Source of the DNA: a virus
Strand: one strand, 5' to 3'
IMG/VR virus record: IMGVR_UViG_3300009094_000009
Location: 1 to 41,328 of that record
Length of the DNA: 41,328 bases
Shown here: one piece after another, positions 8,311 to 41,328 of the stretch
How positions within the stretch are numbered: the stretch's first letter is position 1
Layout: every line of letters begins with the position of its first letter
Translations under genes and position numbers: made by a program
Notes under the pieces: model-generated
The model's input: only the letters and a program-made list of their open reading frames with translations
The model's database searches: none
What the model was told of the DNA's origin: nothing

Positions 8311-8403
8311 CGCGCGCTATCATTGTGTCGTCGCATTCACCTTTTGCATGCGACACGCTTTCGTCCTCATGACGACGACGAACGACACGAAAGGCGCACG
8401 ACG

Positions 8404-9552
8404 ATGGGTCACTTGATACAGCAGAAGAACAACTCGCAGAACCTGCTCATGGTCTGGACGGGAACGGACGGCAAGCGCATCACGCGCAGCAGCGGCACGA
8501 GCGATCGCAAGGAAGCGCAGCGACTGCTCGACATCGAAGTCGGCAAGGTCGCACTGGGCGACGTCGTCACGCGTGAGACGACGGGACGTCGCGCGTGTAC
8601 GTTCGACGACGCGGTGCGGCTGTATGACGACGACCTGACGAAGCGCAAGTGCAGCGGGCGCGATGATCTGGTCGGCAAGATCGCGCTGCATCTGCGTCCC
8701 GTGTTCGGGACTCCCGGCACGCGCAAGCTCGCCGACATCACGACGGCGAGGGTCGAGGCATACGACAAAGCGCGACGCGACGCGGGCGCGAAGCGCGAGA
8801 CGATCAATTCAGAGCTTCGCGTGCTGCGTCGACTGTTCATGATTGCGATCGAGCGCAAGCGCTATCGCGGCGACGTGCCCATCATCACGATTCCCGATGC
8901 GAAGAACGCACGGACAGGGTTCTTCGAGCGCGCGCAGTACGACGCGCTGCAGCAGCAGCTGTCGCACTGGCTGCGCGGTCCCGTCACGCTCGCGTACTTC
9001 ACGGGCTGGCGCTTCGCGTCTGAGGTCTGCTCACTGCGCTGGAGTGAAGTCGACCTGACAGCGGGCGTGCTGCGACTCGACAACAGCAAGAACGGCGAGG
9101 GGCGCGTCTTCCCGTTCACGCCGATCGCGGAGCTCGACGACGCGCTGCACGCAGCGGACGTGCAGCGACAGCGTCTGCAGCGCGAGGGCGTCATCGTGTC
9201 GCACGTGTTCCATCGCAACGGCGAGCCGCTGGTGCTGCCGCCACGCGGGAGCTCGCGCACGGGTGAGACGACGAAGTGGGTGCGCAGCGATTGGGCTGAG
9301 TCGTGTAAGCGCGCGGGCGTCGTCGGTCGCATCCCGCACGACATGCGACGCACTGCGGTGCGCGACTTGATGCGCGCGGGCGTGCCGCTCAAGACGGCCA
9401 TGAAGCTCACGGGTCACAAGTCGATGAGCGTCTTCCTGCGTTATCAGATTGTCGATGAGAACGACCTGACAGCAGCGGTCACGCAGTTGGCCGCGCGTCA
9501 CGCGCTGACGCAGCAGCAGCTGCGACGCACGCGCACGAAGCGCGCCGCATAA
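8404..9552 (+). CDS. int: Tyrosine site-specific integrase
   Basis: This protein of 382 residues integrates the phage into, and excises it from, the host chromosome. An N-terminal core-binding domain (about 60-155) precedes the catalytic domain. The catalytic set is visible: Arg203 (FTGWRFASEV), Lys229 (NSKNGEG), His312 and Arg315 (PHDMRRT), His338 (LTGHKS) and the Tyr347 nucleophile (LRYQIV). ATG 8404 is chosen because GAAAGG lies upstream and the protein then starts with a short beta segment typical of such enzymes; the frame stays open to 8323 without support. A strong hairpin follows the gene. The repeat-bearing gap upstream may control it. An attP core was not identified. Confidence 0.95.
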   Translation: MGHLIQQKNNSQNLLMVWTGTDGKRITRSSGTSDRKEAQRLLDIEVGKVALGDVVTRETTGRRACTFDDAVRLYDDDLTKRKCSGRDDLVGKIALHLRPVFGTPGTRKLADITTARVEAYDKARRDAGAKRETINSELRVLRRLFMIAIERKRYRGDVPIITIPDAKNARTGFFERAQYDALQQQLSHWLRGPVTLAYFTGWRFASEVCSLRWSEVDLTAGVLRLDNSKNGEGRVFPFTPIAELDDALHAADVQRQRLQREGVIVSHVFHRNGEPLVLPPRGSSRTGETTKWVRSDWAESCKRAGVVGRIPHDMRRTAVRDLMRAGVPLKTAMKLTGHKSMSVFLRYQIVDENDLTAAVTQLAARHALTQQQLRRTRTKRAA

Positions 9553-22299: not shown

Positions 22300-22638
22300 A
22301 TGAGCACGAGCGACGGCGTGCGCTTCGATCGACTGTGCGTCGCAGTCGGTCTGCCTGCGCCCGTCGCGGAGTATCGCTTCGCGCTCACGCTCGGCCGACA
22401 GTGGCGCTTCGATTGGTGCTGGCCCGCGCAGCGACTGGCGCTCGAAATCGACGGCGGCGGCTACGTGCGCGGGCGTCATCATCGGCACGACGGCTTCATC
22501 GAAGACTGCAACAAGCTCAACACGGCGCTGTGTCTCGGCTGGCGCGTGCTGCGCATCACGCCCGAACACGTCAAGGACGGCAGCGCGTTCACGTTCGTCA
22601 AGCGCGCGCTATCGGAAGCGGGGAACGGTGGACTGTAG
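22300..22638 (+). CDS. DUF559/Vsr-like PD-(D/E)XK endonuclease
   Basis: This protein has 112 residues. VAEYRFALTLGRQWRFDWCW, then RLALEIDGGGYVRGRH, DCNKLNTALCLGWRVLRITP fit the fold of very-short-patch-repair-like nucleases: the Glu of AEYRF, Asp of RFDW, Glu and Asp of LEIDGG, and the helix ending in GWRVLR. Phages often carry such enzymes in replication operons, where they may cut branched or mismatched DNA. It starts at ATG 22300 across a short gap from the leftward cassette and overlaps the following gene. Confidence 0.75.
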   Translation: MSTSDGVRFDRLCVAVGLPAPVAEYRFALTLGRQWRFDWCWPAQRLALEIDGGGYVRGRHHRHDGFIEDCNKLNTALCLGWRVLRITPEHVKDGSAFTFVKRALSEAGNGGL

Positions 22639-23134
22639 GACCCCCAACGGTCGACGCGCGATCGCGCAGCAGCGCGCCGTCGCGCGACTCATCGCGCAGC
22701 GCTGGCAGGGCACGCTGGTCGAGACGCCGAACGGCGCCGCGAGCGTCGACGTGCTCTTCGCGCGTGAGGGCGAGCTCGTCTCGATCGGCGAGATTAAGAT
22801 CCGCTCGATGGCGTGGCGCGATCTGGTCGCGCTCGGGTCGTATCTCGTGACCTACGACAAGCTGCAACGCGGACGCGAGCTCGCGCGACTGCTCGGCGTG
22901 CCCTTCGATCTGTTCGTGCGCTTCGCCGACGACGTGCTCGGCTGGTGGCGCATCGCGCACGCGACGGGCGAGTGGGCGTGTCGCTTCGTCGTGCGCGAGA
23001 CGGAGACGGCGGCGACGTGCAACGGCGGACGCGTGACACGCGCCAACGCGTATCTCGACGTCCGCGACGCGCAGCTGCTGCGCGCGGCTATGCTACGCAC
23101 GCCCGCGCATGGTCGACGACGATCCGCTGACTGA
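22628..23134 (+). CDS. Second PD-(D/E)XK-like protein
   Basis: This protein of 168 residues starts at a GTG within the end of the previous gene. An N-terminal helix (RRAIAQQRAVARLIAQRWQG) is followed by TLVETPNGAASVDVLFAREG and LVSIGEIKIRSMAWRDL, which gives the D...ExK pair of PD-(D/E)XK enzymes (Asp of SVDVL, Glu and Lys of GEIKIR). The remainder (LGSYLVTYDKLQRGREL, GVPFDLFVRFADDVLGWWRI) is consistent with the rest of such a fold. It could be a Holliday-junction or flap nuclease. The tandem of two unlike nucleases suggests partner roles in processing replication intermediates. Confidence 0.65.
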   Translation: MDCRTPNGRRAIAQQRAVARLIAQRWQGTLVETPNGAASVDVLFAREGELVSIGEIKIRSMAWRDLVALGSYLVTYDKLQRGRELARLLGVPFDLFVRFADDVLGWWRIAHATGEWACRFVVRETETAATCNGGRVTRANAYLDVRDAQLLRAAMLRTPAHGRRRSAD

Positions 23135-25628: not shown

Positions 25629-25879
25629 GTCACACGCAGACACGCGCGACACGGGAGCTCGACGCACACGCGCGGACTCGACGATGGCGAACGTCACTTC
25701 TGCACAGCAAATCCGACGAGGCCGCGCCGCCACCGTATGGCACTCAAATTTCTAGGGAATCTGACCGCGTCTTACTGCTTGGCCCCTCGATTCAGGCGGT
25801 CGCACGTTGTCGGTTGGGGGTAGACGGGGCGAAACCACCGGGAAACCCCACGAAATCGCCGGTACGCAGGATAACGTAA
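25625..25879 (+). CDS. Doubtful small protein between Ig-like and ParB-like genes
   Basis: This open frame of 84 residues starts at an ATGA overlap with the Ig-like gene, and its TAA shares two bases with the ATG of the ParB-like gene. This exact fit between coupled neighbours speaks for a gene. The sequence, however, shows no hydrophobic core pattern, and the DNA is AT-richer than elsewhere, so the stretch may instead be regulatory, for example a promoter for the modification genes or a packaging site. Confidence 0.3.
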   Translation: MSHTQTRATRELDAHARTRRWRTSLLHSKSDEAAPPPYGTQISRESDRVLLLGPSIQAVARCRLGVDGAKPPGNPTKSPVRRIT

Positions 25880-26451
25880 TGCCCACGCACATACGCGAGC
25901 TCACGAGTGACCCGCAGAACCGACGCACGCACAATCCACGCAACCTCGGCATGCTGAGCGACGCGCTGCGCGCGGTCGGTGCTGCGCGCAGCATCGTCAT
26001 CGACGAGCACGACGTCGTGCTGGCGGGCAACGGCGTCGTTGAAGCGGCAGCCGAAGCGGGCATCGTGCGCGTGCAGACCATCGACGTCGACGGTGAGACG
26101 ATCGTGGCTGTGCGTCGCACGGGACTCAGCGACGAGCAGAAGCGACAACTGGCGATGTATGACAACCGCACGAGTGAGCTCGCCGCGTGGAACGTCGAGC
26201 AGCTGAAGCTCGACACCGCAGCGGGACTCGACCTGCAGCCGTTTTTTACCGATGCCGAGCGCGTCAAGCTGTTCGGCGCTGCACTCGACGCGCCGTCTGC
26301 GTTCCCGGTCGTCGACGCGAACCTGCAGACGACGTATCGCTGCCCGTCGTGCGGCTACGAATGGAGCGGACGCGCGAAGACGCACGCAGCGCCCGAAGAC
26401 GACGACGCAGCGATCGCGAGTGATGACGCGCCGTCTGAGCCGAGCGTATGA
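25879..26451 (+). CDS. ParB/Srx-domain protein with zinc ribbon
   Basis: This protein has 190 residues. Residues 5-115 are a ParB N-terminal-type domain: IRELTSDPQNRRTHNPRNLG, MLSDALRAVGAARSIVIDEH, VVLAGNGVVEAAAEAGI, then ETIVAVRRTGLSDEQKRQLA and YDNRTSELAAW. The usual GERRxRA-type box is GNGVVEAA here, so classical ParB nucleotide chemistry is doubtful. The C-terminus has CPSCGYEWSG, a zinc knuckle. Such proteins are often found next to phage DNA methyltransferases and terminases. The stop overlaps the methyltransferase start. Start 25879 is preferred; an in-frame start at 25807 exists. Confidence 0.75.
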   Translation: MPTHIRELTSDPQNRRTHNPRNLGMLSDALRAVGAARSIVIDEHDVVLAGNGVVEAAAEAGIVRVQTIDVDGETIVAVRRTGLSDEQKRQLAMYDNRTSELAAWNVEQLKLDTAAGLDLQPFFTDAERVKLFGAALDAPSAFPVVDANLQTTYRCPSCGYEWSGRAKTHAAPEDDDAAIASDDAPSEPSV

Positions 26452-27431
26452 CGACGCCCGCGTATGTCGTGCCGACGCTTGCGGAGATACGCGGCTGGCC
26501 GCTCAGCGACTACTGCGTCGCGTCGCTGTTCTCGGGCTGTGGCGGCTCATCGCTCGGCTACCGCATGGCGGGCTTGCGCGTGCTGTATGCGAATGAATTC
26601 GTCGAGGCCGCGCGTGACACGTATCGCGCCAACTTCCCGCTGACGTATCTCGACCCGCGCGACGTGCGCAGCGTGAAGGGCGCCGACGTGCTCGACGTCT
26701 GCGGGCTCGAGGCGGGCGCGCTCGACGTGCTCGATGGCTCGCCGCCCTGCGCGTCGTTCTCCAGCGCGGGCAAGCTCGAACGTCACTGGCGCAGCGCGAA
26801 GAGCTACAGCGACACGCACCAGCGCACCGATGATCTGTTTTTCGAGTACCTGCGGCTCGTCGATGAGATCCGCCCGCGCGTCTGCGTCGCCGAGAACGTG
26901 TCGGGGCTCATCCGGGGCGTCGCCAAGGGACTGTGCAAGCAGATCCTTGCGCGCTTCGCGTCGCTCGACTATCACGTCGAGGCGCGGCTGCTCGACGCGC
27001 AATGGCTCGGCGTGCCGCAGCGTCGCTCACGCGTGATCTTCGTCGCCGTGCGTCGCGATCTGCACGTCGCGCCCGCACTGCCCGCGCCCGCCGCGACGCG
27101 CTTCGTCATTCGCGACGCGCTGCCGCAGCTGCTCGCGCTGCAGGACACCGTGTGGCATGCGCGCTGGATTCCCGCATCACAGCCCGCGCCAGCCATCACG
27201 ACCGCACCGACGCACTGCATCGAGCTCGACAAAGGCTCGACGCGTCGTGCGCTCACCATCCCTGAGCTCAAGCGACTGTGCAGCGTGCCCGATGACTTCG
27301 TGCTGACCGGCACGTATGCGCAGCAATGGGAGCGGCTCGGGCGCGCGGTGCCGCCCGCGATGATGCGCGCGATCGCGACGACGATCCGTGAGCGCGTGCT
27401 CGACGTCGCACGACTGGAGGCGAGCGCATGA
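26448..27431 (+). CDS. C5-cytosine DNA methyltransferase with Arg in motif X
   Basis: This protein of 327 residues has the M.HhaI size and order of motifs: SAM loop SLFSGCGGSSLG (motif I, 26-37), catalytic GSPPCASFS (Cys101), AENVSG (149-153), QRRSRV (191-196), a target-recognition part (about 205-265) and the end IPELKRLCSVPDDF plus QQWERLGRAVPPAMMRAIA. In motif X the usual GN(S/A) is G-Arg299-Ala. The Asn equivalent to M.HhaI Asn304 touches the cofactor, and in M.MpeI changing it to Lys or Arg permits carboxy-SAM. The gene is coupled to the ParB-like gene before and to a CmoA homologue after. It may therefore transfer a carboxymethyl group; ordinary methylation remains possible. Confidence 0.9.
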   Translation: MTTPAYVVPTLAEIRGWPLSDYCVASLFSGCGGSSLGYRMAGLRVLYANEFVEAARDTYRANFPLTYLDPRDVRSVKGADVLDVCGLEAGALDVLDGSPPCASFSSAGKLERHWRSAKSYSDTHQRTDDLFFEYLRLVDEIRPRVCVAENVSGLIRGVAKGLCKQILARFASLDYHVEARLLDAQWLGVPQRRSRVIFVAVRRDLHVAPALPAPAATRFVIRDALPQLLALQDTVWHARWIPASQPAPAITTAPTHCIELDKGSTRRALTIPELKRLCSVPDDFVLTGTYAQQWERLGRAVPPAMMRAIATTIRERVLDVARLEASA

Positions 27432-28156
27432 GTGACGAGACGACTGCTGTCGACCACGTGCAGCAGACGGGACCGTGGCGCTTCACGGCAGACGTGGCGT
27501 CGGTCTTCGATGACATGCTGCGTCGCTCGATCCCGCAGCACGACGACATGCGCGCGCTCGTCTTCGAGCTCGGCTCGCGCTTCGTGCGTCCGCAGACGAC
27601 CGTGCTTGACTTGGGCTGCTCGCGCGGCGAAGCGCTCGATCCGTTCGTGCGACGCTTCGGCGCGCACAATCGCTTCGTCGGTGTCGACGTCAGCGGACCG
27701 ATGCTCGACGCCGCGCGCGCACGCTTCGAGGGCTACATGCGCACGAACGTCGTCGCGATTGCCGAGTGCGATCTGCGGCACGACTATCCACGCGAGCACG
27801 CGTCGCTGACGCTCGCCGTGCTGACGCTGCAATTCGTGCCGCTCGAATATCGGGCGACGCTCGTGCGGCGCATGTATGAGCAGACGCTGCCGGGGGGCGC
27901 GTGCATCGTCGTCGAGAAGGTGCTGGGCGACTCGCCGCGCATCGACACGCTGCTCGTCGATGAGTATCTCAGCCTGAAGCGCGCGCACGGCTACAGCGCC
28001 GACGAGATTGCGCGCAAGCGACTCGCGCTCGAAGGCGTGCTCGTGCCGCTCACGGCGCACTGGAACGTCGAGCAGCTGCGACACGCGGGCTTCGCGGACG
28101 TCGACTGCTTCTGGCGCTGGCTCAATTTCGCCGGCTGGCTGGCGGTGCGCGCATGA
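27428..28156 (+). CDS. cmoA: CmoA-like carboxy-SAM synthase
   Basis: This protein of 242 residues matches CmoA in length and along its whole span: VFDDMLRRSIPQHDDM (26-41), the SAM loop VLDLGCSRGEAL (59-70), GVDVSGPMLDAA, CDLRHDYP, LTLQFVPLEYR (132-142), MYEQTLPGGACIVVEK (149-164), GYSADEIARKRLALEGVLVP (188-207) and FWRWLNFAGWLAVR at the end. The Arg of KR (198) probably corresponds to E. coli CmoA Arg199, which holds the carboxylate. CmoA converts SAM and prephenate to carboxy-SAM. In bacteria it serves the tRNA enzyme CmoB, which is absent here. Translational coupling to a DNA methyltransferase suggests that DNA is the acceptor. A plain SAM methyltransferase is the alternative. Confidence 0.8.
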   Translation: MSDETTAVDHVQQTGPWRFTADVASVFDDMLRRSIPQHDDMRALVFELGSRFVRPQTTVLDLGCSRGEALDPFVRRFGAHNRFVGVDVSGPMLDAARARFEGYMRTNVVAIAECDLRHDYPREHASLTLAVLTLQFVPLEYRATLVRRMYEQTLPGGACIVVEKVLGDSPRIDTLLVDEYLSLKRAHGYSADEIARKRLALEGVLVPLTAHWNVEQLRHAGFADVDCFWRWLNFAGWLAVRA

Positions 28157-28701
28157 AAAGTGGACCCGCTCCGAAACCGACGCGCCTGCGACAACTGCAG
28201 GGCAACCCGTCGCGCCGACCCATGAACCTCGACGAGCCGCAGCTGCCCGCCGCCGACGCGCGCTTCGACGTCGTGCCCATCGTGCTTCGAGACGACGCCG
28301 TCGCGAGCAGCGAGTGGCGACGTCTCGCGCCGCTGCTGCGTGTCGCGCGCATCGTCACCGAAGCCGATCGCGCGTCGCTCATCGCCGCGTGTCAGCAGTG
28401 GAGTATCTATCAGCACGCGCTGACGCAGGCGCCGCCCGAGCGTCGCGTGCTGCGCACGCCTAACGACTACCCGATGGTGAACCCCTATATCGCCATCGCC
28501 AATAAGGCGCTGCTGCACTGCGAGCGACTGTGGGATGCGTTGGGCCTGACGCCCGCGGCGCGCTCGCGTGTCGCGATGGCGGGCGCGGCGAGCGATAACG
28601 ATCCGTTCGCGGAATTCGACGAGCCGCGTGCGCGTCTCGCGCATGGGCCGTCGCTCGACGGGCGCATGCGCGTCGACGACGAGGATGGCTCCGTCAACTG
28701 A
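28153..28701 (+). CDS. terS: Terminase small subunit, P27 family
   Basis: This protein of 182 residues begins with the P27-family signature GPAPKPTRLRQLQGNPSRRP, followed by the helical core (EWRRLAPLLRVARIVTEADR, SLIAACQQWSIYQHAL) and PYIAIANKALLHCERLWDAL, GLTPAARSRV. It recognises phage DNA and brings it to the large subunit. It starts inside the stop of the CmoA-like gene and ends 17 bases inside the large subunit gene. The size is normal for the family. Confidence 0.92.
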   Translation: MKSGPAPKPTRLRQLQGNPSRRPMNLDEPQLPAADARFDVVPIVLRDDAVASSEWRRLAPLLRVARIVTEADRASLIAACQQWSIYQHALTQAPPERRVLRTPNDYPMVNPYIAIANKALLHCERLWDALGLTPAARSRVAMAGAASDNDPFAEFDEPRARLAHGPSLDGRMRVDDEDGSVN

Positions 28702-30409
28702 GCACGTCGTCGACGTCTACGCGCGACGCGTCGTCGCGGGCGACGTGCCGGCGGGCACCTATCATCGACTCGCGTGCGCGCGCCATCTGCGCGATCGTGA
28801 GCGCGAGCGCGACGACGACAGCTGGCCGTTCTACTTCGACGCGCTCGAAGCGGATCGCTTCTATCGCTTCGCGAGCTCACTGCGACACTACAAGGGCGAG
28901 CAATTCGCAGGACGACGCATCGAACTCGTCGACGTGCAGCGCTTTCGGCTCGGCTCGATCTTCGGCTGGTATCACCGCGAGACGAACCTGCCGCGCTACA
29001 CGACGGCGTATAACGAGCTCCCGCGCAAGTCGGGCAAGACGCTCGAAGCGGCGATCGTCGCGCTGTATCAGGTGTTCTTCCGGGGCGAGCCCGGAGCCGA
29101 GGGCTACGTCGTCGCGACGAAGCGTCAGCAGGCCAAGCTCTGTTTCGACGCGGCGCGCAAGCTGGTGCGCTCATCGGGGCTGCGCGATCGCATCCGCGTG
29201 CTGACGCACAACCTGCACCGCGACACGCTCGACGCCAAGCTCGAACCGTTGGGCGCGGACGCGGACTCGACGGACGGGCTCAACCCGTTCTGCATCATCA
29301 CCGACGAATTCCACGCGCACAAGACACGCGACCTCGTCGATGTCATGGAAAGCGCGACGGGCGCACGTCTCAGCTTTCTGCATTTCATCATCACGACCGC
29401 AGGCGACGAGCTCACGAGTCCGTGCGGCGAGATGCACACCTACTGCTGCAACATCCTCGACGAGACGCTGCCCAGCGACGCGGCGACCGAAAGCACCTTC
29501 GCGCTCATCGCGCACGCAGACCCGACCGACGACTGGCAAGACGAGCGCACGTGGGTCAAGGCCAATCCGATGTGGGACGTGAGCGTGAACCCGGACGACA
29601 TGCGCAAGGCGGCGCTGGCGGCGCGACACAATCCCGGCCGCGCGAATGAATTCAAGCAGAAGCGACTGAACCTCTGGATCGCCGCGCGCGATCCGTGGCT
29701 CAGCGTCGAGGGCTGGCGCAGCGGACAGCACGTCTGGGACGTCGACGAGCTCGTCGGCGAGTCGTGCTTCGTCGGCATCGACCTCGCGAGCAAGCTCGAT
29801 CTATGCGCGATGGTCTTCGTCTTTCCGCCGACCGACACGCGCGCCGCGTATCGACTGTTGCGCTGGGTGTGGACGCCCGAAGACACGCTGCGCGATCGCG
29901 CGCATCGCGACCACGCGCCGTATGAGCTCTGGACGCAGCAGCGCGGCTTCGACCGTGAGCCCGTCCTGCGCACGTCGCCGGGAACGCAAGTCAATCATCA
30001 GGTGCTGCGCGACGTGCTGCGCGAGCAGCGCGCGCGCTATCGCGTCGAGCGGATCGGCTTCGACCCGTGGCATGCCGACACGCTCATCGACCAACTCATC
30101 GAAGAGGACGGCTTCGAGCGCGACGACGTCGTCGAAGTCAGTCAGACGTACGCGGGCATGTCGAGCGGGGCGGCGGCGTATGAAGCAGCGGTACTGGCGG
30201 GACTCGTCGACGCGGGCGGCTGTCCGCTGATGACATGGACGCACGCGAACGCGGTGGTGCAGCGCGACCCACGTGGCAACGCGTTCCCGATTAAGAAAAA
30301 GTCGCGCGGACGCATCGACCCCGTGATGGCGGCGGTCATCGGGGTCAACCTCGTGCTGCGTGCGCGTCCAGAGTCACCGGCCGAAGATCCGGTGCTCATC
30401 GTCGCATGA
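28685..30409 (+). CDS. terL: Terminase large subunit
   Basis: This protein of 574 residues is the packaging motor and nuclease. Walker A is PRKSGKT (113-119); Walker B with the catalytic Glu is CIITDE (203-208). The coupling region FIITTAGDE lies near 232. The RNase H-like nuclease starts with CFVGIDLASKLDL (Asp near 364), and the last acidic site is GRIDPVMAAVIGVN near 540. The pattern is of the HK97/Terminase_1 type, normally coupled with P27 small subunits and cos packaging. ATG 28685 is chosen because the frame upstream of it lies within the small subunit and is arginine-rich shadow. Confidence 0.95.
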   Translation: MAPSTEHVVDVYARRVVAGDVPAGTYHRLACARHLRDRERERDDDSWPFYFDALEADRFYRFASSLRHYKGEQFAGRRIELVDVQRFRLGSIFGWYHRETNLPRYTTAYNELPRKSGKTLEAAIVALYQVFFRGEPGAEGYVVATKRQQAKLCFDAARKLVRSSGLRDRIRVLTHNLHRDTLDAKLEPLGADADSTDGLNPFCIITDEFHAHKTRDLVDVMESATGARLSFLHFIITTAGDELTSPCGEMHTYCCNILDETLPSDAATESTFALIAHADPTDDWQDERTWVKANPMWDVSVNPDDMRKAALAARHNPGRANEFKQKRLNLWIAARDPWLSVEGWRSGQHVWDVDELVGESCFVGIDLASKLDLCAMVFVFPPTDTRAAYRLLRWVWTPEDTLRDRAHRDHAPYELWTQQRGFDREPVLRTSPGTQVNHQVLRDVLREQRARYRVERIGFDPWHADTLIDQLIEEDGFERDDVVEVSQTYAGMSSGAAAYEAAVLAGLVDAGGCPLMTWTHANAVVQRDPRGNAFPIKKKSRGRIDPVMAAVIGVNLVLRARPESPAEDPVLIVA

Positions 30410-39602: not shown

Positions 39603-41328
39603 ATGGCGATCACCGGACGCTTCGAGGCGGACTTCACACCCTTCATGACGGCGGTGCAAGCCGCCGAGGTCGAGCTCAAGGGTCTGGAGACGAGCTCGTC
39701 GCGCGTCGAGAAGTCGCTCAATCGCATGGTCGACCAATTCAGCGGTCGGCGCATGATTCAGGACGCGAACCTGATGGCCGAAGCCGTCGAGCGCATCGGC
39801 GGCGTCTCGCAGCTGACGCAGTCCGAGCTTGAGCGGGTCGGCGCGAAGGCAGCAGAAGCCGCTGAGAAAATGCGCGCGATCGGGATGGACGTGCCCGAGC
39901 GACTGCAGAACCTCGCGCTGCATGCGAAGGACGGCGCGAGCGCGCTCGATCGCATGGGCGTCGCGGTCGGCACGTTCATCGGCAACTTCGCCTTCGACCT
40001 CGTGCAGCGCGGCGTGTCGTCGATCATGGGCATCGGGACCGCTGCGTTCGAGTCTGCAGGACACATCGCCGATCTGTCGCAGAAGCTGGGCATCAGCGCC
40101 GAAGCGGTGCAGGGCTTTGACTATGCCGCGAAGCAGACGGGCACGACGATCGACAGCTTCGCCGGAGCGATTAACAAGCTCAATATCAATCTCGCCAAGG
40201 GCGACGACAGCACGATCAACGCCCTGAAGTCACTCGGGCTCGAGTACGACGCGATCCGTGCGATGAAACCCGAGGACGCATTCCTCGCCATCGCTGACGG
40301 GATCGCCGCGATGCCCGACCCGATGGAGCGCGCGCGGGTCGGCACGGAGTTAATGGGCAAGGGCTTCGCCGACGTGCTGCCAGCAATCATGAGCGGACTG
40401 CGCGACACGGCCGACAGCGCCGCCAAGATGAGCGACGAGACAGTCGACCGACTCGATCGCGCGGGCGACGCGTGGCAGGCGCTGTACGACAAGGTCGTCA
40501 TCGTCACTGGCGGGATCATCGCGGAGGTGATTGCAGCGGGCGAGAAAATGCAAGCGGCGTATCGCGAGATGGGCGCGGGCGGAACCATCATGTTCTCACT
40601 GCGCAGTATGCTCGCGGGCATCACGGGCGACTATGGCTTCGTCGCCGACGCTGCGCAAGACGCGGCCAACACGATCTGGGGCTCGGGCGTGCCCGCGATG
40701 GACGACCAAGCCAACGCCATCGAGAACGCACGCGAGACGATGCGGCAGTACGAAGAGCAGCAGAAGGCGCGACAGAAGGCCGAGCGCGAAGCGGCCGCCG
40801 AAGCGAAGAAAGCCGCAGAGGAATTCACGAAGTGGGGCGAGACGTTCGAGAAGGTCACGGCCAAGGCGCAGCCGTGGCAAGACGTGCTCGCGACGAATGA
40901 CGCGCAGCTGAATGAGTGGGTACAGACGCTGCTGCGCGCGGGCAACTCCGTCGAGGACATCGCGAAAGCCTACAGCGTGAGCACGGGCATCGTCGAAGCG
41001 AACAGCCGCGCGCTGCGTGAGAACGATGCGACGCTCAAGATGATTGAGCGCACGTATAGCGACCTGACGTCGTTGACCGATCAGTACAACCAGCTGGTCG
41101 AAGAGCGCACGCTGACGACGACCGAGCGGCAGATCGCCGACATCAATCGCTGGGCCGACACCTACAAGGGGCGGCTGATGGAGCGCGGCACGCTGACGGC
41201 GGACAGCGAGAACATGATCGACGCGATCCGCAGCGAGAAGATCGCCAAGCTCATGGTTAATGAGCAGACGCTGCACGAGGCGAGCATCGCCAATCTCGCC
41301 GAGCGCGCGCAGATCGAACAGAACACGC
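39603..41328 (+). CDS. Tail tape measure protein, N-terminal part
   Basis: This is the start of the tape measure gene; it continues at base 1 and ends at 815 (about 805 residues in all). The first 120 residues are charged helix (FTPFMTAVQAAEVELKGLET, LMAEAVERIGGVSQLTQSEL). Hydrophobic, glycine-rich stretches near 122-155 (MGVAVGTFIGNFAFDLVQRG) and 297-314 (KVVIVTGGIIAEVIAAGEKM) are typical membrane-active parts. The motif LGISAEAVQGFDYAAKQTGT near 165-185 and MGKGFADVLPAI near 255 are found in many phage tape measures. A long coiled coil follows (YEEQQKARQKAEREAAAEAK). It is preceded by the frameshifted chaperone gene. Confidence 0.93.
   Translation, partial: MAITGRFEADFTPFMTAVQAAEVELKGLETSSSRVEKSLNRMVDQFSGRRMIQDANLMAEAVERIGGVSQLTQSELERVGAKAAEAAEKMRAIGMDVPERLQNLALHAKDGASALDRMGVAVGTFIGNFAFDLVQRGVSSIMGIGTAAFESAGHIADLSQKLGISAEAVQGFDYAAKQTGTTIDSFAGAINKLNINLAKGDDSTINALKSLGLEYDAIRAMKPEDAFLAIADGIAAMPDPMERARVGTELMGKGFADVLPAIMSGLRDTADSAAKMSDETVDRLDRAGDAWQALYDKVVIVTGGIIAEVIAAGEKMQAAYREMGAGGTIMFSLRSMLAGITGDYGFVADAAQDAANTIWGSGVPAMDDQANAIENARETMRQYEEQQKARQKAEREAAAEAKKAAEEFTKWGETFEKVTAKAQPWQDVLATNDAQLNEWVQTLLRAGNSVEDIAKAYSVSTGIVEANSRALRENDATLKMIERTYSDLTSLTDQYNQLVEERTLTTTERQIADINRWADTYKGRLMERGTLTADSENMIDAIRSEKIAKLMVNEQTLHEASIANLAERAQIEQNT
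41206..41328. repeat. Terminal direct repeat, copy 2
   Basis: Identical to bases 1-123 and inside the tape measure coding sequence; see the first copy. When the circle is closed one copy should be removed. Confidence 0.95.

Follow-up and report, generated by a model that had tools for sequence, protein, structure and literature searches.

The window, the whole stretch of 41,328 nucleotides of viral DNA analysed here, carries two adjoining genes that very probably put carboxymethyl, not methyl, groups on the cytosines of the phage DNA. In the window sequence, the codon at 27342–27344 of the plus strand is CGC, encoding Arg299 of a 327-residue C5-methyltransferase homologue. Sequence comparison, a predicted structure and analogy with a characterised phage enzyme together give a probability of roughly 0.92 that the gene pair is a phage cmoX–cmoA module, which would produce 5-carboxymethylcytosine (5cxmC) in phage DNA from carboxy-SAM, with Arg299 holding the carboxylate. 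A system of the CmoX–CmoA kind is already known, having been described in December 2025 (PMC12783734), and the window provides a further member; we infer the activity of this very protein, its target sequence and its biological role. The features of the locus are as follows.

25807–26451, plus strand: ParB-like domain protein, adjoining cmoX (phrog_620, E 4.6e-18); the true start is perhaps the ATG at 25879
26448–27431, plus strand: cmoX, DNA cytosine C5-carboxymethyltransferase homologue, 327 aa (PF00145, E 7e-49; best PDB sequence match 8YF3, E 6e-64)
26739–26750, plus strand: SPPC motif IV, Ser98–Cys101, with catalytic Cys101 (by alignment with SpCmoX S95–C98)
26751–26753, plus strand: Ala102 codon at the HhaI Gln82 place, second cofactor gate (by alignment; gate role from PMC10666283)
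27342–27344, plus strand: Arg299 codon CGC of motif X, equivalent to SpCmoX Arg350 and HhaI Asn304 (by alignment)
27428–28156, plus strand: cmoA, carboxy-SAM synthase homologue, 242 aa (TIGR00740, E 8.6e-50; first PDB matches 1IM8, 4GEK and 4IWN)
28153–28701, plus strand: terminase small subunit, next after cmoA (PF05119, E 2.2e-19)
28568–30409, plus strand: terminase large subunit (PF20441 and PF03354); the listed start is that of the longest ORF

In the proposed mechanism, CmoA would convert SAM and prephenate into carboxy-SAM. CmoX would flip a cytosine out of the phage DNA, Cys101 would attack its C6, and C5 would receive the carboxymethyl group from carboxy-SAM, yielding 5-carboxymethylcytosine. 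Arg299, standing in the usual Asn place, would hold the cofactor carboxylate while Ala102, in place of Gln, would make room, and the resulting mark would probably protect the phage DNA from restriction.

Likeness of the gene pair to SpCmoX and CmoA

A PDB sequence search with the window CmoX places 8YF3 first (E 6e-64) and M.HaeIII second (1e-23). 8YF3 is SpCmoX of Synechococcus phage S-B43, a proven DNA cytosine C5-carboxymethyltransferase whose product, structure and HhaI resistance have been shown and whose cofactor carboxy-SAM is made by phage CmoA (PMC12783734; Nat Commun, December 2025). Consistently, 8YF3 ranks first in a Foldseek search with the AlphaFold2 model of the window CmoX (pLDDT 91.4, pTM 0.91), and structural alignment by VIA-align 2 also puts it first (Z 35.6, rmsd 2.3, 288 residues, 39% identity), with M.HaeIII next at 31.8. 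The cofactor and catalytic residues of SpCmoX named in PMC12783734 are all present in the window CmoX as F28, E50, F51, D72, C101 and R299. The characters of a CmoX, namely the PF00145 fold (Z 35.6 to 8YF3) with the SPPC motif at residues 98–101, an Arg at the HhaI Asn304 place (SpCmoX R350) and a neighbouring CmoA gene (27428–28156, TIGR00740 E 8.6e-50), are thus found together in the window.

Around the Arg299 codon the cmoX text reads FVLTGTYAQQWERLGRAVPPAMM, and the C-terminal motif of the protein is QQWERLGRAVPPAMM. Arg299 falls on Arg350 of SpCmoX (8YF3) in both the phmmer and the MAFFT alignments, and Arg350 is equated with HhaI Asn304 in the published work, in agreement with the initial annotation, which had placed Arg299 at Asn304 of M.HhaI. 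Arg350 contacts the carboxylate/carboxymethyl group of carboxy-SAM in the crystal structure, the R350N substitution inactivates SpCmoX, and the wild-type enzyme takes carboxy-SAM only (PMC12783734). The further proposal, that a basic amino acid in this position signals the use of carboxy-SAM supplied by a neighbouring CmoA, is supported by the natural SpCmoX R350. The comparison of Arg299 with Arg350 covered residue equivalence and fold. For M.MpeI, where the initial annotation cited replacement by Lys or Arg, the literature consulted names N374K only.

The gene after cmoX had also been named a CmoA homologue, and this identification stands by its match to TIGR00740 over 27428–28156 (E 8.6e-50), though its score of 169.6 bits lies below the equivalog cut-off of 193.3, a cut-off reached by no related phage record searched. 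Window CmoA resembles SpCmoA and E. coli CmoA in whole-length homology and motif I. Its Arg198 corresponds to Arg199 of E. coli CmoA, which binds the carboxylate (PMC3663124), and it differs from the E. coli protein in having His38 for Tyr39 and Val131 for Asn132. In SpCmoA, whose activity is proven, Glu takes the place of Arg199, indicating that Arg there is not indispensable.

The CmoA-like partner is shorter in 101 of the 146 CmoX loci, about two thirds, and wherever it was aligned it has Glu where E. coli CmoA has Arg199. This short form also lacks some of the C-terminal region, examples being L087:5049-5696, L309:9325-9993 and about 100 other loci.

Co-variation of the motif X residue and CmoA

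Related loci were sampled by five viral scans and one genome scan together with reference phages, giving 333 aligned methyltransferases among which some contigs are present twice. The motif X residue is Arg in 155 of them, Met in 137, Asn in 37 and Leu in 1, the remaining 3 being gapped or misaligned. Of the 155 Arg rows, 146 have a CmoA-like ORF no more than 6 kb away, as against none of the 178 non-Arg rows, and after removal of rows more than 75% identical, the ratios are 59/62 and 0/31. When whole records were searched with TIGR00740, a match was found in 16 of 17 Arg-type records and in 0 of 18 others, L084 being left out of the count because it had been fetched through its CmoA. The alignment check of Arg against an adjacent CmoA-like gene, as the initial annotation had outlined it, therefore comes out in favour of the association (146/155 against 0/178), and on the tree residue and gene switch together on no fewer than four supported branches.

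Ordinary PF00145 enzymes encoded by the same bacterial genomes have Asn in 14 cases, Asp in 1 and Arg in none. Since Arg is never seen in these ordinary enzymes and yet occupies the position in 155 of the 333 relatives, Arg299 is not a chance substitution. The earlier description of the replaced Asn as near-invariant has to be qualified, since Met stands there in a large phage family of 137 rows. This Met-type C5-methyltransferase family (GMSVPP) has Ser after the catalytic Cys and no CmoA (L092:1884-2948, L091:2887-3885 and L113-L192).

Nine Arg rows are without a CmoA-like ORF nearby. Four of them lie at contig ends (L016, L231, L110 and L235), three form a one-cluster set (L049, L051 and L052), and the others are L222 and Erwinia phage Y3, which has a CmoA elsewhere in its genome. 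L052, the nearest relative of the window (about 64% identical), retains the Arg and has no CmoA in its 43 kb record; its gene order at L052:5441-9447 is ParB-cmoX-terS-terL, as in the window but with cmoA missing. These observations indicate that a phage-encoded CmoA is not strictly demanded by the Arg. By analogy with the published test in which E. coli CmoA was able to supply the cofactor to SpCmoX, a host CmoA might serve L052 (PMC12783734).

It is hardly credible that the window protein is an ordinary SAM-dependent C5-methyltransferase in which Arg299 is merely tolerated and that the CmoA homologue serves tRNA or is unrelated to the enzyme. The Pfam family and the fold are those of 5mC enzymes, and L052 and a few other Arg-type loci have no CmoA gene nearby, as such an enzyme would allow. 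However, Arg and CmoA occur together almost without exception and switch jointly, the motif IV Gln is replaced as well, and wild-type SpCmoX accepts only carboxy-SAM (PMC12783734). A refuting case, with Arg common in the absence of CmoA and methyl transfer proven, was not found among the 333 relatives. No TIGR00452 match to CmoB was obtained in the window or in 19 related records, so that the complete tRNA cmo5U route is not encoded, and tRNA modification as the purpose of CmoA was rejected for want of a CmoB in the window.

An enzyme that uses both SAM and carboxy-SAM, leaving mixed 5mC and 5cxmC, is improbable. Retention of the Arg by L052, which lacks its own CmoA, would fit such promiscuity, and an engineered M.MpeI variant reportedly retains some methyl transfer. 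Against this, the natural homologue SpCmoX took carboxy-SAM only (PMC12783734).

Cofactor switching and the second gate residue

The tree was built from 86 proteins with the columns around motif X removed. Five transitions between Arg and non-Arg are required on it, of which supported branches force at least four, and in every independent pair the presence of CmoA follows the residue. A single Arg clade is rejected only narrowly (AU p 0.041), and 4 independent pairs are too few for a sign test to reach the 0.05 level. Asn-type enzymes such as L070 are placed inside the Arg-type family. L043:617-2038 and L069:949-2004 are single rows inside this family whose motif X residue is Asn or Leu; with a non-Gln motif IV residue and no CmoA, they look like recent reversions. 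The tree is consistent with repeated cofactor switching in either direction.

Shortening of two conserved residues of M.HhaI, Q82 and N304, admits extended, bulky cofactors (PMC10666283), and the window CmoX has Ala102 at the Gln82 place. Among the relatives, the residue that follows the catalytic Cys differs with the enzyme type: Asn-type enzymes have Gln in 35 of 37 rows, Arg-type enzymes have Ala or Ser in 148 of the 153 rows that can be read, and every Met-type row has Ser. A word search of the text of PMC12783734 finds no mention of the HhaI Gln82 position. On the tree, position 102 of motif IV changes only twice, and not with every change of residue 299, so it characterises the background and does not act as a switch each time. 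A role as an independent switch was rejected on these two changes and on the non-Gln residues kept by L043 and L069.

A broader scenario, to which we give somewhat less than an even chance, is that phage C5-methyltransferases have on several occasions exchanged methyl for carboxymethyl transfer, or the reverse, through motif X (Asn, Leu or Met to Arg and back), the motif IV Gln having already been lost and cmoA being gained or lost together with the residue, and that the final DNA mark of the window phage, which has no ligase, is bare 5-carboxymethylcytosine. Repeated joint switching of the residue and cmoA would give a natural series for methyltransferase cofactor change, at the positions that chemists chose in M.HhaI. 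Relative to PMC12783734, the likely additions are the switching of residue and gene in concert, the second gate position and a complete-looking, ligase-free phage genome with CmoX and CmoA. One residue and a gene neighbour can predict an unusual phage DNA modification from bulk sequence, and the window offers a compact, ligase-free pair of genes that is ready for testing.

Gene neighbourhood, fate of the mark and known systems

Three ATGA overlaps join the ParB-like gene, cmoX, cmoA and the terminase small subunit gene, cmoA lying directly downstream of cmoX with the 4-base overlap. The module is followed by terminase, portal, protease and capsid genes. An integrase is encoded at 8323-9552, and the window virus is a temperate phage. 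An exact 123-base direct terminal repeat (1-123 = 41206-41328) suggests that the record is a complete, circularly assembled genome. The window portal is nearest to those of Arthrobacter phages (about 52%), which only hints at an actinobacterial host.

ParB-like neighbours occur in most CmoX loci but were rejected as diagnostic of CmoX because Asn-type loci have a ParB-like gene too. A putative PDDEXK endonuclease (22628-23134, PF24579, E 1.5e-10) lies upstream of the modification genes. GGCC is rare in the window relative to base composition but only mildly so under a Markov model (0.68), and the relatives vary; no conclusion on restriction-site avoidance was drawn from it.

The AMP-forming amide ligase (CmoY) of CmoA–CmoX–CmoY hypermodification is not recognisable in the window: a six-frame search gave no match to a CmoY homologue, and no PF00733 Asn_synthase domain was found. 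In phage S-B43, CmoY couples glycine to 5cxmC, and all detected 5cxmC is converted (PMC12783734). Since no CmoY-like ligase is found in the window, its mark may stay bare 5-carboxymethylcytosine, barring further modification by an enzyme that went unrecognised. It is possible, though rather unlikely, that CmoX and CmoA act as proposed and that 5cxmC is an intermediate, to be coupled to an amine, as glycine is by CmoY, through an enzyme of the host or a phage ligase that escaped recognition. The complete conversion in S-B43 would favour such a step, as would the CmoY-like ligase found within 6 kb in 44 of the 146 Arg-plus-CmoA loci and the several window ORFs that match no family, whereas the complete-looking record has neither a CmoY homologue nor an Asn_synthase domain and the parB-cmoX-cmoA-terS operon holds no further enzyme. 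Up to the CmoX step, an intermediate role of 5cxmC is compatible with the cmoX–cmoA explanation.

Several Verrucomicrobia assemblies (L303-L318 and L320) contain many copies of a ParB-cmoX-cmoA-like run. In L309 the run is followed by terminase-like genes, suggesting that the Verrucomicrobia copies are probably related prophages.

SpCmoX and the window CmoX, with 44% identity over 290 aligned residues, are alike in fold, SPPC motif, named cofactor residues, the Arg at the HhaI Asn304 place and the adjoining CmoA gene. The window protein is 45 residues shorter and its target-recognition region is much shorter, so that it need not share the GC target motif of SpCmoX, and, unlike the SpCmoX locus, its gene has ParB-like and terminase neighbours and no CmoY ligase. 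Streptomyces phage TurkishDelight and Moraxella phage Mcat8 resemble the window in having a ParB-like gene, an Arg-type CmoX and a CmoA-like gene in one run. TurkishDelight differs in having a glutamine-amidotransferase ligase in between, whereas Mcat8 has the terminase after the module as in the window but a short CmoA-like form. The engineered M.HhaI Q82A/N304A and M.MpeI N374K enzymes are altered at the same two positions, the motif IV Gln and the motif X Asn; those changes were made in the laboratory, whereas Ala102 and Arg299 of the window CmoX are natural.
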